Positions 2,091 to 43,438 of a DNA stretch of 43,438 bases are shown in pieces. Position 1 is the first letter of the stretch, and each line of letters starts with the position of its first letter. The stretch is from Ectocarpus siliculosus. Its lineage: Eukaryota; Sar; Phaeophyceae; Ectocarpales; Ectocarpaceae. Position numbers and translations under genes: made by a program. The stretch lies in the NCBI GenBank assembly GCA_000310025.1, contig FN648740.1:7341-50778 (forward strand), read 5' to 3'. Below the pieces are notes generated by a model. The model saw only the letters and a program-made list of their open reading frames with translations. It was not told where the DNA came from and searched no databases.

Positions 2091-3395
2091 ACGCCCCCCC
2101 CCCAAGAGAGAGAGGGAGCTCAGGCGGTCGCGGTGCGGTGTTGCAACCATAGAGCTATTTGGCGGCGTCGATGTTGGACGTGCTCGCACCCCCTGGATGT
2201 TCGAACCTTCACAGGTTGAACTCAGCAGGACACATGTTACAAGCAGTGTGACACTCTAGAACGCCACTGGATGTTCCTGTAACCTCTCTCTCATGACCCG
2301 TGGCCACGCAACTGCTGGCTGTATGAAAGTATACGGGGGGCAGTCAGTCGGGCACATCAATGGACGCATGACATTGCTGCATGTTCAAAAATTCAGTATT
2401 CGCCGTGTTCCTACTACTTACTGTACCGCTGCACCGCTGCGTGGAGGAGCGTCTGCTGCACGTACACGGGCAGAACAGCATGGCTGAGCGTATGGTATTC
2501 CAAGCTAGACAACATCCAACGTGTGCAAAAAATGTCCTCGGCGAAACGCACCTTTTGCCCACCCCCCCGCAGCGGTAGCACCCTCTGCTCCTGTCGCCTG
2601 CTACAGGTTGCCTACCCCTCGTTTGTAAAGCGAAGTATACGTAATGAAATTGACTAATAAATGTCGGTGTGTACCGGAACACTAAAAGTTTGGAAATAGG
2701 CCAATCGGTCCTCTCCACGCACTCACACGCACCCCGCACCACGGGTGGTGAGAGTCAGCCTTGGGGAGTGAAACAGCCTTGCCAATGTGGCGTACGCGTA
2801 GAGCACGAACAGGCGCACTCGTTGTGGCGTCCAGGAGCGCCCTGCGCCGCAATGCCCCGTGGCGATGAAAGAAACGCTGTTGGTTCCGCAAGTGCGCCAA
2901 GAAGGTTCGGAATGCCCCCATGCCCTTCGCCCTACCGTGCTTCGCCGCTTTGCGTATTCTGCGGACCCCCTTCTTTTCTCTTTTTACCCTCTTCGCCCCC
3001 GCCCTGCTGTGAACAGTAATTTTGGGCACGACCGCACCACCACGAGCCACGTGCCGCAGCAGCTGCAGCTACAGGACAATTTAACAGGCCGCCCTACCTC
3101 TCCGTGACTGTGGAGCACCGCGCGATGGTGAGACTTTCTATTGGCGCTCGACAGCAGCAGCCGCCTCTGTGTGTTGTGTCCGCACATGGAGAGGATGCGG
3201 CGCGGCGCTATAATACCGCCGCGCCTGCTGTAGCAGCTCTATTCCTCGTTTCCCGGATTCGTTCCTTTGGCGCGATTTTTTTTTTGGCGGCGCCGGCGTT
3301 TGCTGCGTTTGCGCCGGATCCTCGTTGCATCTCGGCGCGCTAGAGGATCCTCGTCGTGCCTAGGACACTTTCAGCCGATTGAGGAAGTCGCGCCC

Positions 3396-16855: not shown

Positions 16856-19800
16856 TCAGCCGGGTACATAGTTCGCCACAAGTGCTGCCTCGGCCGCCCT
16901 ACTCGCTTCTACAGCAGCAGCGCCCGGTCGCCGTTTCTTCCCCCCCACCGCCGCTTCCCCGACTCTCTTAGTTCCCAAGATGGCCGTACTCCCTGCTTCT
17001 GCTTCCCTCGCACGCTGGCACTTCGCGGACGCTTCCGCCTCCTGTCTGTGCCATTTCCTCATGAACCATGCCGCCCCGTCCTCGACCTTGTTGTACCACG
17101 CCTCCGGGTCCTTGGCGCTCTCTTTCCCCCTTCCTTTTCGTCTCCCATGTTGAACGCCACGAGGTCCTCTCCTAGACGAGACACCCAGTCGCTCTCCTGC
17201 CCGCCCCGGTATCCCACGCCCCCCGCCATCGCTCCTACTGGGGAGGCGGTTGTCCTCCATGCGCATAACGAAGCCCGCGAAGCACAGTCTCCGTTTGCGA
17301 ACGGTGGCCTCGATGGTTTCCTCGCAGCCGGCCTGGATGAGGGCCTGGGCATAGGACAGGGGGCGGTCTGAGCGTTTCCGCTTGCTCCAGCCGATGCACC
17401 GTGTCAGGAACTGGCGGTGGGTCCCATTGAGCTTCGTGTAGTGCTCCGCTGTTAGGATCCACGAGGCGCACCCGTATAGGAGAGTCTCCACCACTTCAGC
17501 CTGGAGTAGCCGGATCTTGAGCTGGCGGTCGGCCCGTCGCCTGTCGTACATCGAAGCACTGTTCCGGCGGTAGCACTTTCACGCTCGGCAGCTGCGGCTC
17601 GTGATCTCCCGGTCGGCCTTCCCGTCCGTGCAGATGGTACGTCCAAGGTACACAAACCGATCTGTCTGCTCGTACGTCTGGCCGGCGGCGCTGACCGTGA
17701 ACGGGCGTTCCTCGATCCCTTTCGGCAGCATGCACATGATCTCCGTCGTTGGCTCCGATACCATCAGTCCGAACAGGCCGGCTACGCGCACGATGACCGA
17801 CATCATCTTCTCGAGACTCTCCGGCGAGCGCGAGACGATAGCCGCTTCGTCAGCGTAGAGCATGGCCCACAGGGCCTCCACGTCCGTCACCACCGTCGTC
17901 TTGTTCCCCGCCGACCTGCCCTTCTTGCCCATGTACCCCACTTGTGTCCCGATCTTGACCATGTCCGCCGTTACCTTGGGGTCCTTGTCGAACTCGGTCA
18001 CGGCGACCATGAGCATCGCGGCGGGGCCAGGTTGCATCCCTGTCGGAGGCCTTGGCCCACGTCGAACCATTCCGAGTACTGCCCGTCGTCCGTTCGGACG
18101 CGCGCCCTCATGCCCTCGTGGAAGTGGCGAATGACCGCCAGCATCTTCGGGGGCACGCCGAAGCGTCGGAGCACGTCCCACAGCAGTAGGTCTCGGTCCA
18201 CCGAATCGTACACCTTGGTGAGGTCGACGAAGCACGCGAAGACCGCAGTACTCTTCTTCCTCGCGAGCTCATGGAGCCGCTGGATCGCGAACAGCATGTC
18301 GGGCGTCGACCGGTGTGGGCGGAACCCGCTCTGCTCCTCCGGGAGGATGCCCTCTCGCTCGCAGTAGTGGCTCAGTCGTGTAGCGACGACCTTAAGCAGC
18401 GCCTTGCCGGCGTGTGCGACGAGAGAGATGCCCCGGTAGTTGCCGCACTCCATGTTATCCCCCTTCTTGAACAGCACTTTGATGGTGGCATCCTTCCACT
18501 GCTGTGGTACGCTGTGGTACGTCCCCCGTCTGCCACACGTCCACGACGATGGCGTGGAATTCGCGGAGGAGGCCTCGATCTCCGTCCAGGAAAAGCTTGA
18601 TCAGCTCAGCCGGTAGGTCGTCCGGCCCGACGGCCTTTCTGTTGGCCATTTCCCGTACCACTTCCTCAACCTCGAATAGAGATGGGATGTCGTCGAGTGG
18701 CACGCACGTGGGCCACTGCTTGACCTTGTCAGCCGCATGCAGGTCGATGGTCGGCGACTTGGTGTTGAGAAGCTGGTGGAACCACCGCGCCCACCGTTGG
18801 CGAAAAAACGTGGGGTCCCGAAGGACCTTGCCGTCCTCGTCCTTGATGTTCTGAGAGGTGAACGATCTCTTACCTTCGATGCCGATCATCTTCAGGTGCC
18901 TGTAGAAGCCCGCCTAATCCCCCTCGCGGCTCTTCTTCTCGACCTGCCGTACATAGCCCTCGAAGAACGTTTCCAGTGCTCTCCACCTCGCGATGCTGCG
19001 CTTCTTCCGCGCCGCCTTGAGCATCGCCTTCAGGGTCGCCTCGAAGGCGCTGTTCTTGGAGGCCCCACGAAGTTGCTGCTGGGCCGCCCTAATCTCTATA
19101 GACGCTTCGGAGATCTCGTGCTGCGCTTCGCTCGTGTACCAGCCTCTCTGCCCTCGTGCGCACCTCGGCAGCGGCGCGGTCTCGGCAGCGGCCGACATCA
19201 CCATATCCGTCAGCCCGGCGGCGGTCTCTCCCGTTGGCCGCCTGGGCGCCGTGGGCGGAGGGCGGCTGGAGGCCCTGTCTTGGAAGGCGGTCCGTAGGTT
19301 TTTGTCCTTACTTAATTGCTCGAGCTCGAGGTCGATACGGATTCGGCTGCTTCCGCTGTTCCCCCGCACTCGTCGGTTGGGTGCGACACGGGGGGGGAGG
19401 CGGACAGTCGTAAGCACGAGGTTGTGGTCAGAGTCCTTGAAGTCGACATGTTTGACGGAGACATTACACACGAAACGCCGGCCCGCATGAGGATGAAGTC
19501 GAGGCGGTACTTCTCCTTCCCCATGTTGGAGCTCTGGAACGTGTGCTGCACTCCACCTTTCGGTGTCCGAAAGTAGGTGTTGATCAGGGAGAGTTGGTTG
19601 TCTGATGCCAGTCCAACGAGTCGTTCCCTGTTGTTGTTCATAATGTCGCGTCCGTGCGCGCCCAAAATCTTGGCATCGCAGCACCCGTCTCGCCTCCTGC
19701 CGGTGCGTGCGTTGGCGTCCATTAGCACCACGAGATGGTCACGGCTGTGAACCTCCCGGATCGCTGCGTCGAGAGCAGTCCAGAAGGAGTCCGTGGCGTT
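16856..19800 (-). mobile_element. degenerate non-LTR retrotransposon (endonuclease plus reverse transcriptase), 5'-truncated
   Basis: Reading on the minus strand, the remains give the C-terminal half of an apurinic-type endonuclease (about 19800-19312: [15 protein letters not shown], then S-D-H-N-L-V), a linker, and a reverse transcriptase (about 18900-17600: [35 protein letters not shown] and the active-site box). A C-terminal tail (E-T-L-L-Y-G-C) follows to 16856. It is dead: frame changes near 19480, 18515, 18025 and 17560, a TAG at 18914-18916, and YADE instead of the catalytic YADD at 17846-17857. Endonuclease motifs upstream of 19800 are missing, as expected of truncated insertions. Clade not assigned. 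Confidence 0.9.
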
Positions 19801-21585
19801 AACACCACCGCCCGCGGTGGTGCGGACAGCTGCCGTGGTATGTATTTGTGTTCCGAGACGAACATACTGCCCTCTCTATCTCCCTCTCTCCCTCTCCTCT
19901 CTCCTCGATTTTGCAGCAAACACCACCGCCGTCACAACAGCAAAGACACAGCACACAGTCATAACAACGCCGCCACCACCGCCAGCCCCCAACCAAACTT
20001 TCGGGCACTGCCCGGACGATTTTTTGTTGTGCTGCATGCGTATCAAAGCGTACGTAAGGTTGCTGCATGCTGCTGCACCCTCTCTTTTCCCCTCTGCCCT
20101 CCTCGCTCGTCGTGCTCCTTTTTCTTTCTCGCTTTCTCTGGTGCCGCCATCGCACGCAAGCACAGACGAACTAACGAACAGACACAGTTCCACAAGGCTC
20201 GCCGCGTAGCTTATGGGCTGCCCCGTTATTTTTGTGGGGGGGAGGGCGGCCCTTCCTAGTCGGCGTGGCGGGGAGGCTGGAGGTTGTCGTTGCCGTTGAT
20301 GCACAGGGTGTGCGTATACGCCTGTCTTCCTGTCTTTTCTAACCTCTCTCTCATTTTCTCTTTGGCACAAAAAAAAGAGAAGAAGGACCAACGGTTTGTT
20401 ATCATCAACGTGCCCGAGTGCCAACATACAGAGTATCAGCTAGCGTGGGATGGGGGCGCTCTTGGCAGAGACGAACGCTCCTTGTCCGCTATTCGTTCAC
20501 TACGTAAGGGTGTGCATATTCGTATCACCTTGACAAAGGGCACTCTAATTTCGCTTGCTGCTTGTTTCCGGTTGATCAAATTTGGCTGCACCACAACGGC
20601 AGCCCACCTGCCCAACACCAGCTGTCCGAGGATGTATTGGTGCAGGCTAACAGTCCTCCTGTGTTTTTATCCTGTGAAGATCTATTCTCGAGTTTTATAT
20701 CACGAGAGTTTTCCACCAAAAATGTACCAAAGCAGCGAAAGGCCCAAAAAAGTCCCGCCGGTCCATGCATCATGTTTTAAATAACTCTCTTGTGATGATG
20801 GCAAGTTTCCGATAAGAACCGAATTTGATATAAGAACCGAATTTGACATCCGAAACAACACCACAAACAAGAACATGACATGTTCAATCAACACTGCGGG
20901 TGCATGCGCGAAAACTTGCCTACAGCAGCAGAGTTTCACTTGGCCCGCTGCGAAGTGTAAAAGAGCAAACGTAGGTACTGTTGTTGGACTTTTCGATGAC
21001 ACGAAGAGTCACAGCGATGTGAAATAGAGGAGGTGATGAAGCAAGAGGCAAATAATATTTCAAACTGTCCACCTGGGTTGCAAGCCCCCACAAAAAGCTT
21101 TTTTTTTTTTATTAAGACAAGGCATCGATCACGCGGAGCCCCTACAACGGCCAGATTCCTATGGGACAGGCCGTTGTTCGTCAACAACTCCGGCTGTAGT
21201 GGCGATCCAAAATGTTGAAACCTTCTAAAAGCATGTCTCTACAGCGTGGTGCCATAAAAATATTGGACTGGATCGTTTTTTGAAGGTGTAAGAAGAGCGT
21301 CGAAGGTCAATTTTCGGGGGAGGTTGGCTGAGAATCCAAACAAAATTGGAGGTAGGGCAAACCAAATGTCTGCGCGTGTAGAACATGACATGCTTGAGGT
21401 ATCCTGCAGGTTTCATGGCACGTCGCCATCCATCTGTGTGAGGAGGACCAGCAGTGACAAAGGTGTGCGCCAGATGGTGCGCTGGGCAACCCATCATGGG
21501 AGCTCAAGCGGGGTATAATCGATCTTCGCGGAGCCCCTTTGTCATAGTTTTTTTGCTTTTTGTGTGACTTGCAACCCGGGTGATG
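19801..21585. other. non-coding interval
   Basis: No gene recognised. Contains CT-rich sequence at 19870-19910. The frame at 20284-20784 has no domain. A short imperfect direct repeat (ATAAGAACCGAATTTGA) lies at 20812 and 20830. Confidence 0.5.
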
Positions 21586-26296: not shown

Positions 26297-27498
26297 ATGA
26301 ACGTCTCCGTCCAGACTCCCGACCGGGAAAACACTCCAGCTTGTCGTCAGCACGAACGACACGACCACCGACGTGAAGAAAAAGATCCAGGACAGCGACG
26401 GCATCATCCCGCTCGACCAGCAGCGTCTGCTCTGCACAACCCAAATGATGGATGATCTTCGCACGGTTTCAGAATACAAGATCAAAGGAGACACGCTTCA
26501 CTTGATTCAGCGTGTGAGCGGGGGCGGGTGGGCGTGTCCTCCCTCGCTTGGAAAGTATGTGATATTCGTCAAGACCCTCACCGGAAAAACTGTCGAGCTT
26601 GTCGTCGGCTCGTACAACACGATCGCCGACATGAAGCTAATGATTCAGGACAAGAAGGGGATCCCGCCCGACCAGCAGCGGCTGATATTCGGCGGCAAGC
26701 AGCTGGCGGACGGTCTTACGTGTTCATTTTACAACATAGAAGGAAATTCTACGCTTCACTTGGTCCTTCGCTTGAGAGGTGGATTCGCTGCTCCCACCGT
26801 TGCCGTTGGCGCGAAGTTTGCCGACGTTTCCGACTCGTCCGACCTCACAGAGCACGCCTTCTCGAACGACGCCCCGTCCTGGAGGGTTGCCGAGGCTGTG
26901 CCTGGAAGGAAGGTGCACCAACCGCCAATGCGACGCTCACGGCCGCATGGTCATCCTTAACCATGCGTTCCGGGACTTCGACCTGATCCGGCCCGGCAGA
27001 GACCCGAAGCGCTGCCCAATGTGCAACCGCGAGGTGGTGCCGAGCACGTGTGCCTTCACCGACTGCACGTGGAGGTACAAGGGGCGGAAGGCCGGGGAGA
27101 CCAACGTCCTGGTCGGCATGTGGAAAGAGGCCGGCGACAGCTACCACCGCTTCGAGGAAGGGGGTGAGGTGCAGTGGGACAGGCTGCTCATCCAGGTCAG
27201 GCCCCTGCTCAAGCTCGAGCAACGTGTCCCTTCCGCACCACCGGCGGACGAGAGGATGGAGCGTCCCAACACGACAGCCAATACCGCGACGTCAACCGTA
27301 GCAGTCGTGATCGACCACACGTGGAGTCGATGCACGAGGTGCACGGATTGTTCCGCGTTCGGGGCAACCCCTGCGTCCGACGAGACGGTCCTGGATTGTG
27401 GCCACCGGTTCCACACCAGGTGCCTCGCGGGCTGGGAGCAGGGCTCGATGATCGTCTGTCCCATCTGCCGGGAAGAGTCGTCGCCGCTGCCTCAGTAG
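26297..27498 (+). CDS. ubiquitin-ubiquitin-Cys-rich-RING-H2 fusion, two frame breaks
   Basis: Start ATG 26297 opens a diverged ubiquitin unit (M-N-V-S-V-Q-T-P, then after one surplus base near 26321 T-G-K-T-L-Q-L to L-H-L-I-Q-R-V). After a short Gly/Trp linker comes a second, closer unit (F-V-K-T-L-T-G-K-T ... L-V-L-R-L-R-G-G), with the Lys29 position as Met and the Lys63 position as Gly. The same frame continues through S-D-L-T-E-H and A-P-S-W-R-V-A-E; one surplus base near 26895 then moves to a frame with [13 protein letters not shown] and a further Cys pair, probably zinc-binding. A RING-H2 finger follows (C-x2-C, D-C-G-H-x-F-H-x2-C, C-P-I-C), and the stop is at 27496. Likely a ubiquitin ligase carrying its own ubiquitin-like head. 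The breaks may be sequencing errors, pseudogene lesions or real; the open, motif-intact remainder argues for recent or artefactual breaks. CTCAG just before the ATG could be an acceptor. Confidence 0.7.
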
Positions 27499-28649: not shown

Positions 28650-31600
28650 CTACTCCTTCTCAAGCCCAAAATAGAGCCAGAGGCTCGGCACGAAGTAGCA
28701 GGAACTTTTTCCGCACGGACAAAACGATTGGAGCGGGGGCGGGGGGTGGGAGGGAGGGCGGGATCGACGCCATTCGTTGAAACGGCGAGACGGAGATGGG
28801 ACGGTCGGTGAGTGCGTCGCGTCGTGATTGTCCCGAATAAACGTGCGCCTTTTCCTACAGACGATAAATATATATCTAGACCACATGCCCAAAACTCTCA
28901 TTATTTCCACAACATTTTCAGCAGGTATTTAGGTCCCTACGAAAGAAACATATCGATCATCATGCGGGGCACGTCCCAGTTACAGCATCTCAGTTGCAGA
29001 GCGGCTACACAAGAACAGCAAAAAAAAAAACACCACCACCGAAAACGCTCTCTCTCTCTCTCTCTCTCGAGCACGAACGACGGTGTGCGTGCTCTCCGTC
29101 GGAGCACCCTACCCACCCACCTGAACCCCATGCAGCCGTACACCACGACCTTGGAAGGGATGTCCACCAAATTCCTCCGCGGGGTCTCCCCCTTGGGCCA
29201 GCTGGGGCTGCGGGCTAGCACGGCTGATAGCGCCCCTTTAGACACGAGCTTCAGCACCGACCTGAAGCGCCGCCAACAAAAAGGCGGGGGTATACCTACT
29301 CGTGAACGCGCATGCCGTAGTCGTGAGACCATTGACCTCGCATCCCTACAAAGCCGGGACGGAGCACGCTGGGTTCTCACCGGACCAGGCTCTCACATCA
29401 CCAAGCGCGAAGCGGGGAGGGAAGGGAGGGCTCATAGCCGTGCATGTTGTATTCGTTGGACCATCGACCTCGCATCGCCACATTCCCGGGACGGAGCGAT
29501 ATGCCGGGGGGGAGGGCGGGGTGATATGACGCGGACCCCGGGCAAGGCGGTAGTACGGCATTTTCGCTGGCGAGGGGGCGGGGAGATAACTCCGTTTGGG
29601 GCTTGGGCATATGACGGTTCGCAGGGTAGAGATGTAGTACCTTGACCTTTGCCTTACGCGCGCCCATCGACCGGAAGCAAATAACTTCAGCCGGGCGTCC
29701 GGGAGGAAGAGGATGGACGGGGGAGACGTGCTACGGTACGGGCGGGGTGCCTTCCGCCGCGGTTAACTTGGTCCCACACTCCGTTTCCCCCGCTACCGTA
29801 GCCACGGTTCGACTGGGCTGTGCGGGCAGAGTGGCCTGTAGGATGTCGCAACAATAACCAGTCACAGCAACAGTAACAACAACAATGACAACAACAATGA
29901 TAACAACAACAACAACAACAACAAAAACAACGCACCTCATTGGCAAGAGGACTAAAAACCCCACGCCGCACCGCCTCCCGTCCCCGAGCAGTGCGCCCCA
30001 CCCGTACCCTTCGGCTCGCCCGGAGGAGAGCAAGTGAACTCCTTGCAGGACCTGTAAAAAACACGCGGGTCGTACCACGGTACAGTACGCGGGAAGGACC
30101 GCACGGCGGGGGCGGGTGTCCGAACAAGTCGCAACGGATTGACAACGGCTTCGACACACAGCAAACCACTGCACTGCACCGACGTCATTTTGCTGGTCGA
30201 TCGCTGGTACCAGACGTCTTGTTCATTGGTCAGGCGGTTAGCGCGGTCGATGCTAGTCATGAACAAACACACACACACACACAAAAGAATTTAGCTTGCC
30301 CCATCAGATCATGGACTTTACAAGTATTCTTTGTTTGCACCCGCACTGAGACTGACGTCTTTCCATCGGCCAGGCAGTTAGCGCGGCCGATGCCAATAAT
30401 CAAGCGACACACACACAATCAGGGACGTTGCGCGTCGCGACACGCACGAGACAACCCTGGCTACGGGCACGTTTCCAGCGCCACAAAAAACTTGACCCGC
30501 ATGGTTCTACCCCTGGTACTGCTGTGGCTGGCTGTGGGAACATTCCCAGCAAAAAAACCTTGGCGTCTACCAACAACCACTGCACCACCGCCACCAACCA
30601 CAACAACAATAACAACAACAACAACAACAACAGCAATAAATACAACAAATACACCACCACCACCACCACCACCACCAATACCAACACTTACAACACACCT
30701 GGAGAGTAACGTCACCAGTGCCGCCGCCGCCGCCGCCGTCACCCCTACCGCCGCGATGCAAAAGGCAGCAGGCCTCAAGGAAACCCGCCGCCGTGGCCAC
30801 GATGATTACGGTGTCCCCGAAAGAGTTCGTCCACTTTTTGGGGCACGGGTAGGCCAAGATAGCCCCGCCCGCCCCGCCCAAGACAACCAACCAAGCCTGC
30901 ACACGATTGGAGCGGGGTACTCACGTAAACGCATGCCGTAATATAGCCGTAGAGCTGGCATCCCTACGATGCCGGGACGGGGCGAAACTTGGGTGAGGGG
31001 GGGGAGAGATGGATACGGACTGAGGACTGCTCACGCTTCGCTGTTTAGACGTTTCTCACTTGAGACGGGGGTATCGGAGAGGGTCACAGCAAAACATTCA
31101 CGTGGGCAAACCACCAGTTGAAGGTGATATTGCAAAAGGAGAGGTCCTGGTTGCCTGGGGAACGAGTATGTTCCCCGCAACGTAGGCCAGCCGTTTTCAC
31201 TGCACTCTCCTGGGTATATGATGCACCCTTGCCCCTTACCACCGGGTTTCTCACCGTGAAGGCGTCTACGGCTTACCTCTCAAAATGGTATTTTACGGGT
31301 TACCGCATACCATTGGGTTTCCCACGGTGAAGGCGTCTGCAGTATACCATATTCGACACAAGATAACACACCCCCTGGACCGATTTTCAAAGCTCGAATA
31401 CTACACGACGAAGAGGATGCACAAACGAAACGATACATTTTCGGAGAGGCATCGACCCGACGGCTTGAACGCCGCCGTTTTCGACGCTGCGGCTTTTTCT
31501 GTTGTTCATAAATCGAGCTTTGAAAATCTGTCCGGGGGGTGTGCCATCTTGTGTCGTATACGGGTGCCCCTCACCATGGGGTTTCCCACGATGAAGGCGT

Positions 31601-34600
31601 CCACGGCGCCCCCGAAGGCGAGCCAGAACGTCAAAAGGAAGCCTCCTAACAGATACCCCGCAAGCACGTCAGGAATCGAGTGCACCTGCCGGCGAGAACC
31701 AAAAAACGAAAGCGGAAGAAAAAATGAACAAAACACGCAGCCGTTCCTTTCGGAAACAGGCAAATAAAGACGACAAACCTTGGAGGGTAAGTGAACAAAA
31801 ACAGCCGCCATACAGAGAATAATGCAGGGTTAGAGTCGCCGGGAGCAGGACATCGGGAGAGTTGGCGGGGCTTATTTTGTCTGCGTGACAGGGAGGGTGC
31901 CACACTCAAATAATGCATTTTTGGGGACCCACCAGTATCGCCGCCGTCACCAGTAATGTTCTTGCTGCAGAGAAAATCGAGGTTTGAAAACGGTCCAGGG
32001 GGTGCGGCATCCTATGCAACCTATGAGGTCGCCACATTGCTCTTGAGTTAGTGGGATCAGGATCAGAACACATTCTTGCCTTTGAGTTGAGTAGTGGAGT
32101 CACACAAGCAAGCGCGCCTGCCCAAAGGGTTGTTTTCAACACAGCTGTTTTGCTTCCAAATTTCCAAATTCCAAATTCCAACTTTGCAGATTTTCCAAAA
32201 TTTGGAAGCAATTCGTTCCAAATTTTTCGGTGCCAGTAGTTTCCGAGTTTCCAAAAAAAGATCCTCGTCCGCAAATCGGCAAATCGAGCTTCTATGGTCT
32301 ACGGATTTCGAAATTTGGCAATGTGGAAGCTAAATACCAGCTGTTTAAGACGACCCTTACAGATTTGAAAACATGGAAGCAAAACAGCTGCTGTTTAAAC
32401 CGGCCCTTGCGGTAACAAAAAAGTAGAATAAGCTCACACACTCTCACCCCCATGTACAACCTGCTGGTCGCGATGGCGGAGCTCCAAGCCAGGCACGCCC
32501 ACAACAACACCCCCGCGGTCGGATAGCTACTATCCCCGACGACATCGGCGGCGCCGCCCTCGAGGAGGGAGCAGTCATTGCCGTCGCAGCCGCTGCTTCC
32601 GCTGCCGCTTCCTCGCCGGGAATGGCAAGCCACGAGGAACAACGGGATGAGCGAGCCCATCGTGTGCGTGCTTGGGAGGCCGTACCTGCGGGGGGGAGGG
32701 GGGGGCGCCGTCGGTGATACATGGGGGGGGGAGGGGGGGTGCAAAACGGTCGAGTTGTGGAGGATTCTTAGATTTGGAGGTAATGGAGGCGTCATATTTA
32801 GCGAGCCCTTCCTAGAAGGTACGTGGTGTGACGCTGGATGCGTTTTCCATCTCTTTTATTTTTCATCGCCACATTCGTTCGAGTAAAACGATGGGAGAGG
32901 GCGAGGAACGAAGCGAATGTCGTCACCCTCTTCCTCGACCAGGAGGGTTCTCTTATCTTGGTGGCATTTTGAAGCCAAGGAAAAGACCCCCCGTCACAAG
33001 CGCGCGTGATCGCACATACACCCTTCTCTAACCCCGAACTTCAAAGAAAGCTCGAATTGCTCCACAACCAAGAGGCGAGATGACAAAAACGCCCGATCGA
33101 TGCACGAAGCAAGGAAGGCTCTTGTCGAGATCTATCTTTTCTACGCAACTTTCTTCGTCAGTGACAGGCTCGCGGTAGCGGAGCAATCGGGCTTTCAACT
33201 TCACTCTAGCGGGTGTAAGTGTGTTCCCCCATAAGCGGCTTGCGTGAAGTGTGCTACAAAAAAGCCCCAAGTTGAAATTCCGATAAGCTTTTTCGGCCCT
33301 CGCCATGACTTCTACGTGCACCCTTGGGGCGTGTGAAATTACTCGCACTCTTCTTACAATGGAAGGAAAAAGAAGAAACACGATCTGGGGGGCGCAATCA
33401 ATCAAGTTTTGCATGCCCAGCGGTTAGACCATTGTCCTCGAGGGGACAGACGGAGCGTTGTTTCTACAGGATTGATCACCGATATGGCTAATCACTCCTT
33501 TTCCTGCTTTGCCAATTGTGGCTCAAACATTTTGACAGTATCACTTCTCGCCTGCGTTATACCACTGGGGGTTGAGGGTCGAGGGTCGAGGGTGCAAAAC
33601 GAAGTAAGCGTGGGCTCCAGCAACTAAATAACCATTGCTCACAGCAGTGGTCTGGAGACAAGAAGCGCGTGCTTGCAGTTGGACAAAACAAAAACATCTC
33701 GGGATACGTTCGGGTAGCAACATGTGTCGGACAAGTAAGTGGTTAATTGTAAGGGATTTCGATAGGTTTTGATTTTCGAACGTAATCATAATCTTGGTAA
33801 CAAATCATGATTCATGTCGAAAATTCACGATGGAATAAAATCGTTTCTGGACTCGTTTTCGAAAAATTCGAGGAAGTGGTCCGATTTTGGAGACATCGAT
33901 AAATTTTGAAGTATTCTACATGAGTGTGGGTGAAATCGGCTGGATTGCACCGGGATTAATATTACCGGGACCATTAATGCCATAATTCTCGGCCATTATT
34001 CGACATGTTACAATTGCATATGAACTTCCCAAGCAGCGATTTTCGTTTCGAGCCATGCTTGTTAATACATTTTTTCCGTACGCAAAAATACTCGGCGTGT
34101 TTCACCAGTTCCACCATCAACTCTGTAGACTGGTACATGTAACACCCAGAATAGATGGGACGACAATACACAACCCATGACGAGACAACATTATTACGTA
34201 CATTACCGATAGTGAAATATAAGTCAAATTATTTCGAGATTTTCCAACCAGCTCCCAGAGCTCCGTTGGTAGAGCGCGGCTCTGATAAAGCCGAGGTCCC
34301 GGGTTCGAACCCCGGTGGGAGTATTCCTTTTTTGATTCGGACTTTTTTTTTTTCCCCAACTTGTTTTGTCCTGGGCGTTTTTTTGTTTCATGTGCAATGA
34401 GTTGCTTTCGTGCGCGTCTTTTTCAAAGCTTTTATGACTTTTGCTGGGAGAGCATTGTTAGCATTGTTAATATGCATGAAACTATCATATTTTGTTAAGA
34501 TTGTTATTGGTGTTCATCAATTAATTTGGTCTGTATACATCTCGCCGCATTGTTGTTTTGTTCTCCTCTGTACATACCACGTTCGTTCGTTCGTTCGTTC

Positions 34601-37987: not shown

Positions 37988-38264
37988 GCCCACGGGCCCA
38001 GCGGTGTCGTAACGTACACATCATGTACGGCAGTCTGATTTTGTAGCGCGGTCCATGTCACGAGGGCGTTCGGTGTCCATGACTATCAATCTTTGATGTC
38101 GTCTTGGTCAAACGTCAGCATGGATGTAACCACAACTTCCCATGAAACCCGGGAATCACAGCAGTGACAGCAGACGTAGCTTGCCCTCTTCATCGATCGA
38201 TCACCATTTCCACGGACAGGGGTGTTCATGCAACCAACCCTCCACCCCCCCGGGCGAAAACCCG

Positions 38265-38350
38265 ACACTTCGCTCGGTCCCGGCATCGTAAGGATGCGAG
38301 GCCAATGGTCTAACGACTACGGCATGCGTTTACATGAGCATGAGTACGCC
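38265..38350 (+). repeat. R1 dispersed repeat, partial copy
   Basis: CTTCGCTCGGTCCCGGCATC, then GATGCGAGGCCAATGGTCTA, ACGACTACGGCATGCG and GAGTACGCC. It is the 3' half of the unit seen in full just downstream. Confidence 0.75.
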
Positions 38351-38365
38351 CCGCCCCCCCTCCGT

Positions 38366-38510
38366 GCCACTCGCCGAATACCTCACGCTGCGCTTCGCGC
38401 TTGGTGATGTGAGAGCCTGGTCCGGTGAGAACCGGGCGTGCTCCGTCCCGGCTTTGTAGGGGGATGCGAGGTCAACGGTCTAACGACTACGGCATGCGTT
38501 ACATGAGTAA
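38366..38510 (+). repeat. R1 dispersed repeat, best copy
   Basis: About 145 bp: ACTCGCCGAATACCTCACG, CTTCGCGCTTGGTGATGTGA, CCTGGTCCGGTGAGAACC, GTGCTCCGTCCCGGCTTTGT, then GATGCGAGGTCAACGGTCTA and ACGACTACGGCATGCG. Copies at 9021, 29292 and 29428 (minus) share most of it; 2052, 24312, 30915 and 33408 share the 3' part. The GGTCAATGGTCTAAC core looks like a tRNA A box, suggesting a tRNA-derived SINE; no B box was found. Confidence 0.75.
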
Positions 38511-38562
38511 CCCCTGTCACGCCCTTGTCGCCCTCCTCTTCCCTCAGCCCCAAGGAGATACG

Positions 38563-40579
38563 ATGATCACTCATCACTCCAAGATATTACCAACGATCCC
38601 AAGCAATCAGCCATTCATAGAACCGGCCAGAACCTGCTTCGAACCAGACCCCCCCACCCCCAAATGCCCGAAACGCACAGCAGTGCAGAAGCCAAAGTCT
38701 TCCTCCTCTTATGCCACCATCGGTGGCGGGGGGGGTGTGAAGGGTACCGATCCAGACGCCGGGGGCGCGTGGCCGGAGGAGCCCGCGGAGATTCGGACCG
38801 GCTTCCCGGCTGTGATGAAGTACGCCATCCTCGCCATGATCTGCGCCCTGGCGTTCTTCATCCGCCTCTTCGCGGTGGTAAGTCATATTGCTTGCATGCA
38901 TTGATCGGTACGGACAGAAGAAGGTTCTGGGCGGAGAGATCGGAACGGTTTTGACTGCAAAGACAACAACAAAATGCGTTGGTGTCTTGTGTGTGTTCTG
39001 TTTTTTGTTTTTTTTTGCTTTCTTGATGTTTCAACAGCAGCCGCTGCTGTACCTTTTTTGGGTGTTCAAAACCACATCAGGCATGCGCATCGGTTGAACC
39101 GCCCCATCCGCCTATGGGTGTGAAAAGGTACTGGGCAGAGGTTGGATAGTGTTTACGATGTAAAATCAGTAATACCAGTGAAAAAAATCCGCCATCATGC
39201 CAGGTGTACATAGCGGAACTGAAGAATGCACGTATAATCACACCTGTTTTGTTGATGCTTGTAGGCCTGTTTTCGCGGGCCAGTGTCTTGACCCTTCCCC
39301 ATTCGTTGTTGCCGCAAGAAGACGCATTCTATGCATCCATCCGGAGGTGTTGGGGGTGCTCGGAAATTTAAAATTTAGTCAGGGGTGGGGTGGAAATCAG
39401 CGGATGGTAGTGAGTGAACCGGAAATTGAAGTACCGCGAGGGAGCGTGATTTGACCCCGCTGCTGCTGTGGTGCCACTGGCATGTCTCATGACTCGGCAC
39501 TTTTACGGTACTTTGGTGGCGAAAATCGGTCCCAAGTCAACGCTCTACTCACCACCAACGCCCATGCGCGACGTTTAGTCCTTGTCTTTCCATCGCCCCC
39601 CCTCCCAGAACTAAAAGAAGGAACGAAAACAAGTCAAAACTTGAAATTATACATTTTTTTTCTCCCCGTGTGGGTGGGCCCTGGCTGCATGATTCAACAC
39701 GGCAGGTGCGCTACGAGTCCGTCATCCACGAATTCGACCCGTATTTCAACTTCCGTACCACCAAGTTCCTGGCCACGGAAGGGTTCCTGGACTTCCTCAA
39801 CTGGTTCGACGACCGAGGCTGGTACGACCTCGTCGTATGGGTTAACGATACCATTAAAAAAAAAAAAGTGCCCCATGCACGATGCATGATGTGTGTATTC
39901 TGGAGATGAATCGGCATCTATTTCTTCAAGTCCTCTGGGGGGTGGGGGGGGGCGAGGTCCGTCGTCTTGGGAGTGTGTTCTCCGGAAAGTTCTTTTTTTC
40001 ATGTCGCGGAGGAAAGTTCTTCCGTCGGCCTTTGCCCTAACAAGGAGATGGATGTCCGTTCGTGCCCCCCTGTGTTATTAGTGTAATTTGCCTTTTGGGA
40101 TTGTCCGCCGCCTTGGTTCCCTGTCGGGAGGGGCGGTTCGAGTTTGTTTTTATTTCCTTCGGAAGGGTACCCCCTCGGGAGAACCAACGGAAGCACCGTC
40201 CAAACTACCAAAGTCTGATATTTTCTTCTTTTGTTATAATATTTTTGCAGGTACCCCCTCGGGACAACTATCGGAAGAATCATCCCACCCGAGTCTGACC
40301 TTTTTTTTTTTTGTTGTGGGTTCAGGTACCCCCTCGGGAGAACCATTGGAGGTACCATCTACCCGGGTCTGATGGCCACCGCGGCGTCGTTCTACTGGAT
40401 CCTCCACGCGCTCCACATCACCATCAACATCCGTAACGTGTGAGTTGCACAGTGGTGTCTCAGCTTCCTCTGTGTGTGTGTGTGTGTGTGTGGCTCTCTC
40501 TCTCTCTGTCCCTCTCTCTGTCTGTCTTTTGTCTCTCTCTCTGTCTTCTTCTTCCTCTCTCTGTGTCTCTCTTGTCTCT

Positions 40580-40629
<50 letters not shown>

Positions 40630-41303
40630 CTGGCCGGGTTTCTGTCCCTGTGTCTCGTTCGTTCTTTTGCCCTCTCTCTCTTCCAAAGCTCCACTAACAC
40701 TCGACGTTTACGCACGCATGGGGATTTTGGGTGGGAGGCGCGTAATCGTTCGGTCAAACTCTTCTTTTTTTTTTGTCGTTGATGTTGCTCCTTTGCTTTC
40801 CCCGCTACGCAAGTGTGTCGCGCACAGACCGGTTTCATGTCGGGGTTGCCTATAGCATCAGAGCCGATGGATCACGCGCGCTATGCCTCCCGAGAATTGT
40901 TCTTGTAACTCTCGCCGTCTCTCTCCAAAGAATTAGTGGCATTTTTTTGCTTTTTTTTTTTTTGTACGATGTGTTGTGGTGGTGATATCCCTTCTTCTTT
41001 TTTTTGTTTTTTTGGTCAGGTGTGTCTTCCTGGCCCCGCTTTTCGCGGCCAACACGGCGGTTGCCAGCTACCTCCTCACCACCGAGGTGAGAGTTTTTTT
41101 GGTGGAAACGGTCGGGAGGTGTCGTTGTGTGCATCTATTATTACGTGCCCGTACCTGCCTTCCTGGAAAAGAGGGGGTCCCGTTTTCTTTCCTTGAAATG
41201 TCCGTGGACGCGTGCATGCACGTCCGCACCCTGGTACACATAACCCGGATATTCGCACACTTTTATTGGTTTGCGTAGAGCGTGCAAGGCGTACCTCTCT
41301 CTT

Positions 41304-41351
<48 letters not shown>

Positions 41352-43226
41352 CCTCGTCCTCCTTCTCTCTCCCGCTGTCTCTCTGTGTCTGTCTCTCTCT
41401 TTCTCTCTCTCTCTGTGCCTGTTGGTGTCATGTGGCCACGAACAACGCACGAGATTTTTGCGGAACAGGCCGTTACAGTACCGCCCGGCGATTGATTTTA
41501 CCATATCCCGCGATGGCGTGCCTCGTCTTTTCCGGAACATGTAGAAAAAGCTTTTCTAATCGTGGAGAACTAGTGCGTGCCTCCCGAAGACAACTCTGTT
41601 TGACAATACAAGCACCATTTTGATACTGCACTGATGTAATGTTTCCGAACAGAGTGGGGCAACGACAACAACCCTCCTGCTTGTTACGTACGCAAAGGGA
41701 ACTTCGACCACAAGTTTTGTTATTTCCGTCTTCAAAGTCAAGTGAAATGATCGATTTTCAACACCGGGCACCCGATATCCACTCAACAGAGTGGTAACAA
41801 ACAACTGTCTTGTTTTGTTTGTTTTTTGCGACGGTTTCGTAAAACGCCTTCCCAGGTGACGAAGCGGTCGTCCACGGGGCTGCTGGCGGCCGCGTTTACG
41901 GCGATCGTGCCCTCGTACATCTCCCGCAGCGTGGGTGGGTCCTACGACAACGAGGGCGTGGCGATCTTCGCCCTTATTTTCGTCTTCTACCTGTGGATCA
42001 AGAGCGTCAACACCGGCTCCATGATGTGGGCGTGCCTCACGGTGAGAAACAGATGTTGTTGTGGTCGCCGCTGTTGTTGTTGTTTTGTTGTTGTTGCCGC
42101 TGGTGTTGTTGTTGCTGTTGCATGTCCAAGCCTGTGTTTCTCGAAGCCTCATACATTAGCGAGTGTCTTCTTCTGAGTACATTCTGTTTTCGATTTTTTT
42201 TTTTTAGATTTGGCGATGGAAATCCCACTTGCCGTGGCCTAATTCTCCAAACCTTGATACTGAACGCCTTTTCTTCGATTTTTTTTGTTTGTAATTTGGC
42301 GATGGAAACTCTCCACAGGCGTTGGCCTACTTCTACATGGTGGCCGCCTGGGGAGGGTACGTGTTCATCATCAACATCATCCCCATCTACGTGGTGGTAA
42401 TGGTGGTCGCCGGCCGTTACAGCAGCCGCTTGTACATCGCCTACTCCACGTTCTACGCCCTCGGCAGCATCATGGCAATGCAGGTATCTATCTGAATATG
42501 AGTATAGCATCATGGCAACGCAGGTATCTATCTAAGTATGAGTATATGTCTTGTGTATATGTTTATGTCTACTGCTGCTGCTGCTGCTACTGAGTCGGTC
42601 CATGGTGCCGTGGACGTCGAGGCATGCCGTTGTTTTGTGCTGTTTTCTGCCGCTCTGTGTCTAGACATGCACCGCAGCAGGTGTTGTTTTATGTTTTGGC
42701 GTGCTGTCTACTACTATTAGTACCGCCATTCGTCTAAACATGCACCACAGCAGATGTCGTGTTCATGTTCTTGTGTGCTGTCTACCACTATTTTCTGAAC
42801 ACACCGAAGCAGTTGTTGTTGTCTACTATTAGTACCGCCATTTGTCTACACACGCACCTTAGCACGTGTGCCATGTTTATCTTCTGGCTTGCTGCCCACC
42901 GCCCGCTGCGTAGAGACAGTTAGAGGAAGTGGGGTCTTCATTTCTAGGCACGGCGCACGAGGCTGACCTGTCGGAATGGACGACTTCAACCTGTCGTGGC
43001 GTCGGGACGCGCGAAAGTGAAAAGAGGAACAGGCCGTTTTCTCAAGAAATATATAAAACATGTCGACTTCAAACTAGCTCCGACGATGTTCTTTCTGTAC
43101 ACCATGCACGTACCCGCTGTTCGTGCGAAACTAACGAAAAAAAAAAAAAAGGTTCCCTTCGTGGGTTTCAACGTGGTCAAGCAGGCGGAATGCATGGCCT
43201 CCCACGGGGTGTTCATCGGTATCCAG
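38563..43226 (+). CDS. STT3: STT3, catalytic subunit of ER oligosaccharyltransferase (5' part, runs off window)
   Basis: Seven exons join in phase: 38563-38877, 39706-39821, 40326-40439, 41020-41086, 41856-42041, 42319-42483 and 43152-43226; 346 residues are visible. The protein is collinear with eukaryotic STT3: first membrane segment, then [10 protein letters not shown] (DxD-type catalytic region, Asp about 116), [50 protein letters not shown], and [13 protein letters not shown]3 transfers the lipid-linked glycan to Asn in N-x-S/T sequons in the ER lumen. The soluble WWDYG domain lies beyond the window. The start is uncertain: ATG 38563 gives an unusual Pro/Ser/Gly-rich extension of about 80 residues beside an R1 repeat, and an acceptor near 38684 is an alternative. 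Introns 2 and 6 contain duplicated splice junctions. Confidence 0.93.
40167..40300 (+). repeat. two degenerate upstream copies of the STT3 exon 3 start
   Basis: GTACCCCCTCGGGA, AAC and a GTCTGA end block occur at 40167, 40251 and, as the true exon, 40326. The intervening T-rich stretches end in TTTGCAG and GGTTCAG. The first copy has a stop (TGA) in the exon frame; the second reads [13 protein letters not shown] but runs into the T tract. Confidence 0.88.
40470..40626. repeat. TG and CT microsatellite in STT3 intron 3
   Basis: A (GT) run at 40474-40491 then CTCTCTGTC-type repeats and a 50-base pure CT run. Frames through it are artefacts. Confidence 0.95.
41300..41420. repeat. CT/CTGT microsatellite in STT3 intron 4
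   Basis: TCTGTCTGTCTG then CT runs with TGTCCC interruptions, similar in composition to the tract in intron 3. Confidence 0.95.
42467..42546 (+). repeat. 40-bp tandem duplication across the STT3 exon 6 donor
   Basis: Units 42467-42506 and 42507-42546 each read GCATCATGGCAAYGCAG followed by GTATCTATCT and GTATGAGTATA-like sequence, differing at three to four bases. The first contains the real junction after 42483; the second offers a decoy donor 40 bases on. Using the decoy would add 40 bases and meet a TGA at once. Confidence 0.95.
42650..42900. repeat. degenerate tandem repeat in STT3 intron 6
   Basis: Three imperfect units carry (C/T)GTCTA.ACA(T/C)GCACC, AGCA(G/C).TGT, TGTTTATCTT-like and GTGCTGTCTAC words; CTATTAGTACCGCCATT occurs twice (near 42714 and 42828). 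Spacing is about 75-115 bases. Confidence 0.7.
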
Positions 43227-43438
43227 GTGGGTTGTCTTCGTTTGTTGCTGGCCGTCTCCCTGCAGTTGATCCACACGATCTGTTGGTGTGTGTAGCGCTA
43301 CCTACCTAGCGCCCCATCCCCCTGTTGTTCCGCCCCCTCCCCCCCCCTTCCCTGCCCTGCTGCCCCCCCTCCTGGGTGTGCTCCTCGGCTCTCCCCCCCC
43401 CCCCCCCCCCCCCTTTTTTTTTTTGCCCTGGGGCGCCC
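43227..43438 (+). other. start of STT3 intron 7
   Basis: Opens with GTGGGT after ATCCAG and ends the window in C and T homopolymer runs. The next STT3 exon is outside. Confidence 0.7.

Follow-up and report, generated by a model that had tools for sequence, protein, structure and literature searches.

Copies of splice junctions inside introns of STT3 and other genes of Ectocarpus siliculosus, and their probable origin by local tandem duplication

Results

The window, i.e. the whole stretch of 43,438 nucleotides of the Ectocarpus siliculosus genome that we analysed (C205:7341-50778), reaches the end of its contig in a 189-Mb genome of 492 contigs. At 38563..43226, on the forward strand, it carries the gene for STT3, the catalytic subunit of OST, which continues past the contig end. 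The gene has seven exons joined at GT-AG introns (38563-38877, 39706-39821, 40326-40439, 41020-41086, 41856-42041, 42319-42483 and 43152-43226), and the joined exons form a stop-free reading that matches PF02516 with an E value of 3.6e-81. A very similar query, with a guessed beginning of about eleven residues, matched STT3A of the PDB (E 6.2e-103). The whole-genome search for the STT3 family gave three matches, each on the contig of this gene. They cover 23-65, 119-181 and 183-273 of the 405 profile positions, and what is left of the gene either lies past the contig end or was missed by the family search. Exon 2 ends at 39821 and intron 2 thus spans 39822..40325 on the forward strand, a phase 2 intron of 504 nt that contains the copies described below. 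An Rfam search of 38000-43438 returned nothing that reached the gathering score.

The start of exon 3, i.e. its first 47-52 nt, is present in three copies, from 40167, 40251 and 40326, at spacings of 84 and 75. The copies stand in direct order with T-rich spacers between them; all three positions carry GTACCCCCTCGGGA, and each block terminates in GTCTGA. Copies 2 and 3 are immediately preceded by CAG, and copy 1 by CGGAAGG. All lie on the forward strand. Copy 1 (40167..40218) has a degenerate acceptor (GGAAG|G) and its frame hits a stop; copy 2 (40251..40298) has an intact TTTTTGCAG acceptor, whose end is at 40250; copy 3 (40326..40372) is the real start of exon 3 and the only one of the three that is conserved exon. 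An earlier note on this DNA had described the triplication with these spacings, block ends, spacers and CAGs, and had taken only the third copy for conserved exon. Both descriptions hold.

Chance similarity between the copies is ruled out by two results. The exon 3 start scores 28.5 against its own intron, as high as none of 200 dinucleotide shuffles, and its 15-base core GGTACCCCCTCGGGA occurs in 189,456,909 bases three times in forward orientation, never in reverse and never in the backwards control, all three occurrences being in intron 2 and exon 3 of STT3. The copies have nevertheless diverged from each other: over the first 36 bases, copies 1 and 2 share 29, copies 1 and 3 share 30, and copies 2 and 3 share 28. 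The differences are unevenly spread. From the junction on, 15 columns are identical in all copies; of the 33 ungapped columns that follow, 21 are, terminal GTCTGA included (p 0.009, for a block chosen post hoc).

Judging from its sequence, acceptor 2, which consists of a T-rich tract and CAG|G, would add 25 amino acids if used, keeping the frame and meeting no stop, and use of acceptor 1 would run the frame into a stop. A generic acceptor matrix gave acceptors 1, 2 and 3 scores of 4.5, 3.8 and 6.3. With the same matrix the remaining true STT3 acceptors scored -2.4, 8.9, -1.1, -2.4 and -11.9, and since several of these are low, the matrix is a poor basis for ranking the three copies. The tails of the relics also contain candidate branch sites: upstream of acceptor 2 the AG-free zone has a single YTNAY, CTGAT in the tail of copy 1, and upstream of acceptor 3 it likewise has a single one, CTGAC in the tail of copy 2. 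The latter belongs to a forward-strand TCTGAC at 40294..40299, whose A, at position 40298, is 27 nt away from the end of intron 2. That relic exon sequence might act as the branch site of the true intron 2 acceptor is a suggestion. It stays one because the motif CT[AG]A[CT], sought 15-55 nt before predicted acceptors, was found in 12 of 83 introns, without clear enrichment over three bins further upstream (10, 6 and 10 of 83), and because the AG-free zones of STT3 introns 1, 3 and 4 contain no YTNAY at all.

Two further junctions of STT3 are duplicated, again on the forward strand. The true acceptor junction of intron 5 (42294..42337, with exon 6 starting at 42319) has a relic at 42208..42249 (score 25.5, 0/200 shuffles as high), in which the AG has decayed to TT (CCACTTGCC for CCACAGGCG). 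The true donor junction of intron 6 (42466..42505, with exon 6 ending at 42483) is copied 40 bp downstream, at 42506..42545, with CAG|GTATCT intact (TRF period 40, 92-93%; 0/200 shuffles). Hence, introns 2, 5 and 6 have one junction apiece that outscores all 200 shuffles. Intron 6 also holds a diverged three-copy repeat at 42650-42875, with copies 73 and 112 apart, so that much of this intron consists of local copies. Its acceptor (43131-43151) is preceded by CTAAC and a run of A in place of a pyrimidine tract.

Copies of splice junctions are not restricted to STT3. On the minus strand, a PAP2-family phosphatase gene (PF01569, E 1.4e-12) has an exon end with the true donor CCCATG|GTGAGG at 31575..31601, and relic copies of this donor edge, with the GT kept, at 31311..31337 (25/27) and 31240..31266 (22/27). 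The exon parts of the three copies share 25, 22 and 23 of 27 bases, and this triplicated 5' splice edge mirrors the triplicated acceptor of STT3. Another donor edge is triplicated on the minus strand of L023 (2221-2508), with scores of 25.5 and 16.5 versus 12 for the best of 200 plain shuffles, in a gene that matches PF00118 and whose best-matching PDB chains are CCT gamma. In the same gene, intron 10 contains an extra donor copy, and intron 8 an acceptor copy, which is weaker. L024 has a donor copy (score 16 versus 14.5 for the best shuffle) in a gene whose upstream part matches Reelin_subrepeat-B, and the donor copy in L011, of complex sequence, belongs to a gene that is only predicted and has no Pfam match. 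Similar copies were found on the multi-megabase contigs C7, C19 and C20.

Local repeats were surveyed in 20 stretches of 10 kb and in the window, i.e. in 214,796 called bases. These contained 72 complex pairs with a score of at least 18 at distances of 20-399, versus 2 at distances of 3000-3379. Local duplication is thus general in the E. siliculosus stretches surveyed. For a count at splice junctions we used a home-made gene finder, with STT3 as its first training, which in a strict run yielded 77 introns beyond STT3. This run had STT3 introns 1-5 right at both ends, misplaced the donor of intron 6 and missed exon 7. Beyond STT3, the junctions of the predicted introns gave 8 positives in 154 tests; four concerned simple sequence and four were complex (PAP2, L011, CCT-gamma and L024), the latter all donors. 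Interior 60-mers of predicted introns were positive in 6 of 136 cases, five of them complex and two of these five from one array. The controls for the exon edges were 447 reversed, reverse-complement or distal-exon sequences. At a score of at least 16, 5/170 exon edges matched their own intron, the given STT3 case included, versus 0/447 controls (Fisher test, p 0.0015). At 14 or above the numbers were 5/170 versus 1/447, and at 12.5 or above 8/170 versus 10/447, where the separation from controls is weaker.

We also checked by hand 27 introns of six genes, with a median length of 580. Eight of their 54 junctions were positive, or seven after removal of one whose G-rich surroundings adjoin a gap, as were 24 of the 143 interiors, 19 of these being complex. 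Junctions (7/54) and interiors (19/143) do not differ (p = 1), in a comparison where interior windows overlap and several match one array. All 19 complex interior matches are confined to STT3 and CCT-gamma; three coincide in part with the junction arrays in introns 2 and 5 of STT3, and three sit in the gap-bearing intron 10 of CCT-gamma. Both rates are biased by the choice of genes, as STT3 was given beforehand and CCT-gamma and PAP2 were picked for having a match. In the three genes picked without prior knowledge of matches (CDC48, LON and another AAA gene) none of 14 junctions was positive. The ab initio figure of 4/154 is a less biased rate of junction copies than the hand-checked one. Relative to this sample STT3 is enriched, with 3/12 junctions copied (p 0.009), or 2/11 when the given case is removed (p 0.05).

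Discussion

We consider it probable that these copies result from local tandem duplications that are blind to splicing: they lengthen introns and, when they happen to span a junction, leave behind relics of exon edges. In STT3, two local tandem duplications with units of about 75-85 bp would have affected the 3' splice junction of intron 2, each taking along the T-rich tract, the CAG and about 47 bases from the beginning of exon 3. The copy farthest downstream remained exon, since it alone is followed by the remainder of the gene. Those upstream of it would have become part of the intron, where they would be decaying neutrally as relics, one of them still a good decoy acceptor that the spliceosome presumably ignores or rarely uses. 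The same process, ignoring splice sites, would copy intron interiors and other junctions, both 5' and 3'. Where a 3' junction was straddled, the exon-forming copy would be the downstream one; where a 5' junction was straddled, it would be the upstream one. Selection may later silence a decoy, and the lost AG in intron 5 suggests that this has happened there. Yet, several observations count against this reading. STT3 is richer in junction copies than the sample, the three genes picked without prior knowledge have none, the exon edges exceed the controls clearly at high scores only, and the invariant block of 15 columns at the junction of exon 3 hints at constraint or conversion.

Introns of Ectocarpus are long, with a median of 524 bp on autosomes, and tandem repeats make up 3.35% according to a 2025 report (PMC12477816). 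That introns can arise from duplicated AG|GT segments of exons is already in print, and so is a boundary-crossing duplicate in potato (PMC2891723, PMC4974935). In potato RdRp a tandem duplication across the boundary between an intron and an exon gave rise to a new intron; the duplicate holds the intron's 3' end (putative branch site, pyrimidine tract and 3' splice site) together with the beginning of the exon that follows (PMC4974935). The repeat unit of STT3 is likewise the 3' end of an intron and the start of an exon, in direct order, i.e. a boundary-crossing duplicate of the potato RdRp type. The outcome would differ: the potato gene gained an intron together with an insertion of exon sequence, whereas in STT3 there are three copies, of which the extra ones would remain intronic, with relic acceptors. 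In the model of Rogers (cited in PMC4974935), tandem duplication of an exon segment with AG|GT produces new introns, and another report gives Drosophila cases of such gains (PMC2891723). STT3 resembles these in having repeats near the intron ends at a proto-splice site. It differs from them in that the end of the upstream exon is not significantly repeated and that the T-rich sequence of the intron has no evident counterpart in the exons. Among the open-licence papers that our searches brought up, represented mostly by titles and the first lines of abstracts, none names junction copies there as a genome-wide class. What looked like one oddity becomes a countable class of relic exon edges. If a few percent of the junctions in an intron-rich genome carry such relics, they constitute natural experiments on how decoys are tolerated, silenced or used, and on how introns grow.

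Was intron 2 itself born by copying? To the earlier note it seemed to preserve an intermediate of a proposed route to new introns and alternative acceptors. Under the hypothesis of a birth by copying, the whole intron arose when the start of exon 3 was serially copied in tandem: a copy 0 would provide the donor (G|GTAC), copies 1 and 2 the filling and the AG before copy 3 the acceptor, as in the intron gain of the Rogers type. The first 36 nt of intron 2 (39822..39857, forward strand, GTACGACCTCGTC...TACCAT) indeed match the exon 3 start at 20 of 36 positions. This is the top value among 92 introns and is reached by 0.0001 of cross pairs. The putative copy 0 is also nearer to the exon than to either relic (15/36 each), which fits a star from a slowly evolving exon. 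The resemblance speaks for a possible fourth copy at the donor, decayed by now. But the likeness was spotted by eye prior to testing, and without its first four bases (GTAC) it falls to 16/32, reached by 0.0027 of pairs. In addition, the exon 2 end shows no significant repeat in intron 2 (score 10.0, matched by 61/200 shuffles), and the T-rich tract with CAG has, by eye, no evident source in the exons. We regard the birth of intron 2 by copying as unlikely. Of the earlier interpretation, the two relic exon 3 starts with acceptor-like sequence stand, copy 2 being a plausible in-frame alternative acceptor; as to the intron-birth intermediate, the end of exon 2 speaks against the plain AG|GT duplication model and the likeness between intron start and exon 3 start for it. 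The simplest event would be the duplication of a pre-existing 3' splice junction, lengthening the intron. A search for relatives, in one scan of viral contigs, gave 52 pattern stretches, none of them confirmed.

One might instead see copy 2 as an acceptor in use. Duplicated acceptors can give alternative 3' splice sites, and STT3 would present a comparable situation, a competing in-frame AG 75 nt upstream. Copy 2 would then insert 25 residues after DDRGW, or copy 1 would lead to nonsense-mediated decay, resulting in regulated isoforms. The T-rich tract, CAG|G and open frame of acceptor 2, the stop that follows acceptor 1 and the absence of mutations in the 15 junction columns of all copies are in line with this. 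If functional, the acceptor of copy 2 should compete, and this counts against its being a relic. But copy 2 shows by eye no synonymous bias, and it deviates from a segment that is conserved between STT3A of the PDB and the E. siliculosus genome. No coding constraint is apparent by eye in either relic, copy 1 having its stop, and an insertion at the DDRGW site would probably harm STT3. We find regulated isoforms quite unlikely. A bolder speculation, to which we give equally little credence, is that junctions are repeatedly carried outward by duplications straddling them and that exon relics are taken over as splice signals. A copy of the Gly-Leu-Met part of the exon would have become the branch site CTGAC and an older copy the donor, intron 2 being then largely assembled from duplicates of the exon that follows it.

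As the window lies at the end of a small contig, of 50,778 bases, one might suspect an error of assembly or a damaged haplotype. Yet, the copies are mutually divergent (28-30 of the first 36 bases shared) and comparable junction copies occur on multi-megabase contigs, so we hold such an artefact to be very improbable. A dispersed mobile or introner-like element, which the location of the repeat at an AG|GT junction might evoke, is hardly credible and we reject it, since it has no copies elsewhere: genome-wide the exact core is restricted to STT3 intron 2 and exon 3, and a search of intron 2 against 189 Mb, which skips simple repeats, found its own exon copy as the sole further match. The preferred reading thus remains the tandem duplication of junctions in place.

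Repeats and repeat-like features of other kinds occur in the window and in the genome. The minus strand at 16857-19875 has open frames, in several pieces, that by eye look like a non-LTR retroelement with its endonuclease and reverse transcriptase. At 26322-26960 two ubiquitin-like repeats, also recognised by eye, lie in one frame about 255-258 bases apart. A motif of 39 bp (GGATGCGAGG..GGTCTAACGACTACGGCATGCG) is repeated at 38292-38330 and 38462-38500, and a similar one stands on the opposite strand within 29307-29365. A minisatellite with a unit of 66-67 bp (GGCTTGTTTTACAACGTCGTTGCC...) is found on three contigs, at L008 9696-9831, L021 6050-6113 and L022 5093-5229.
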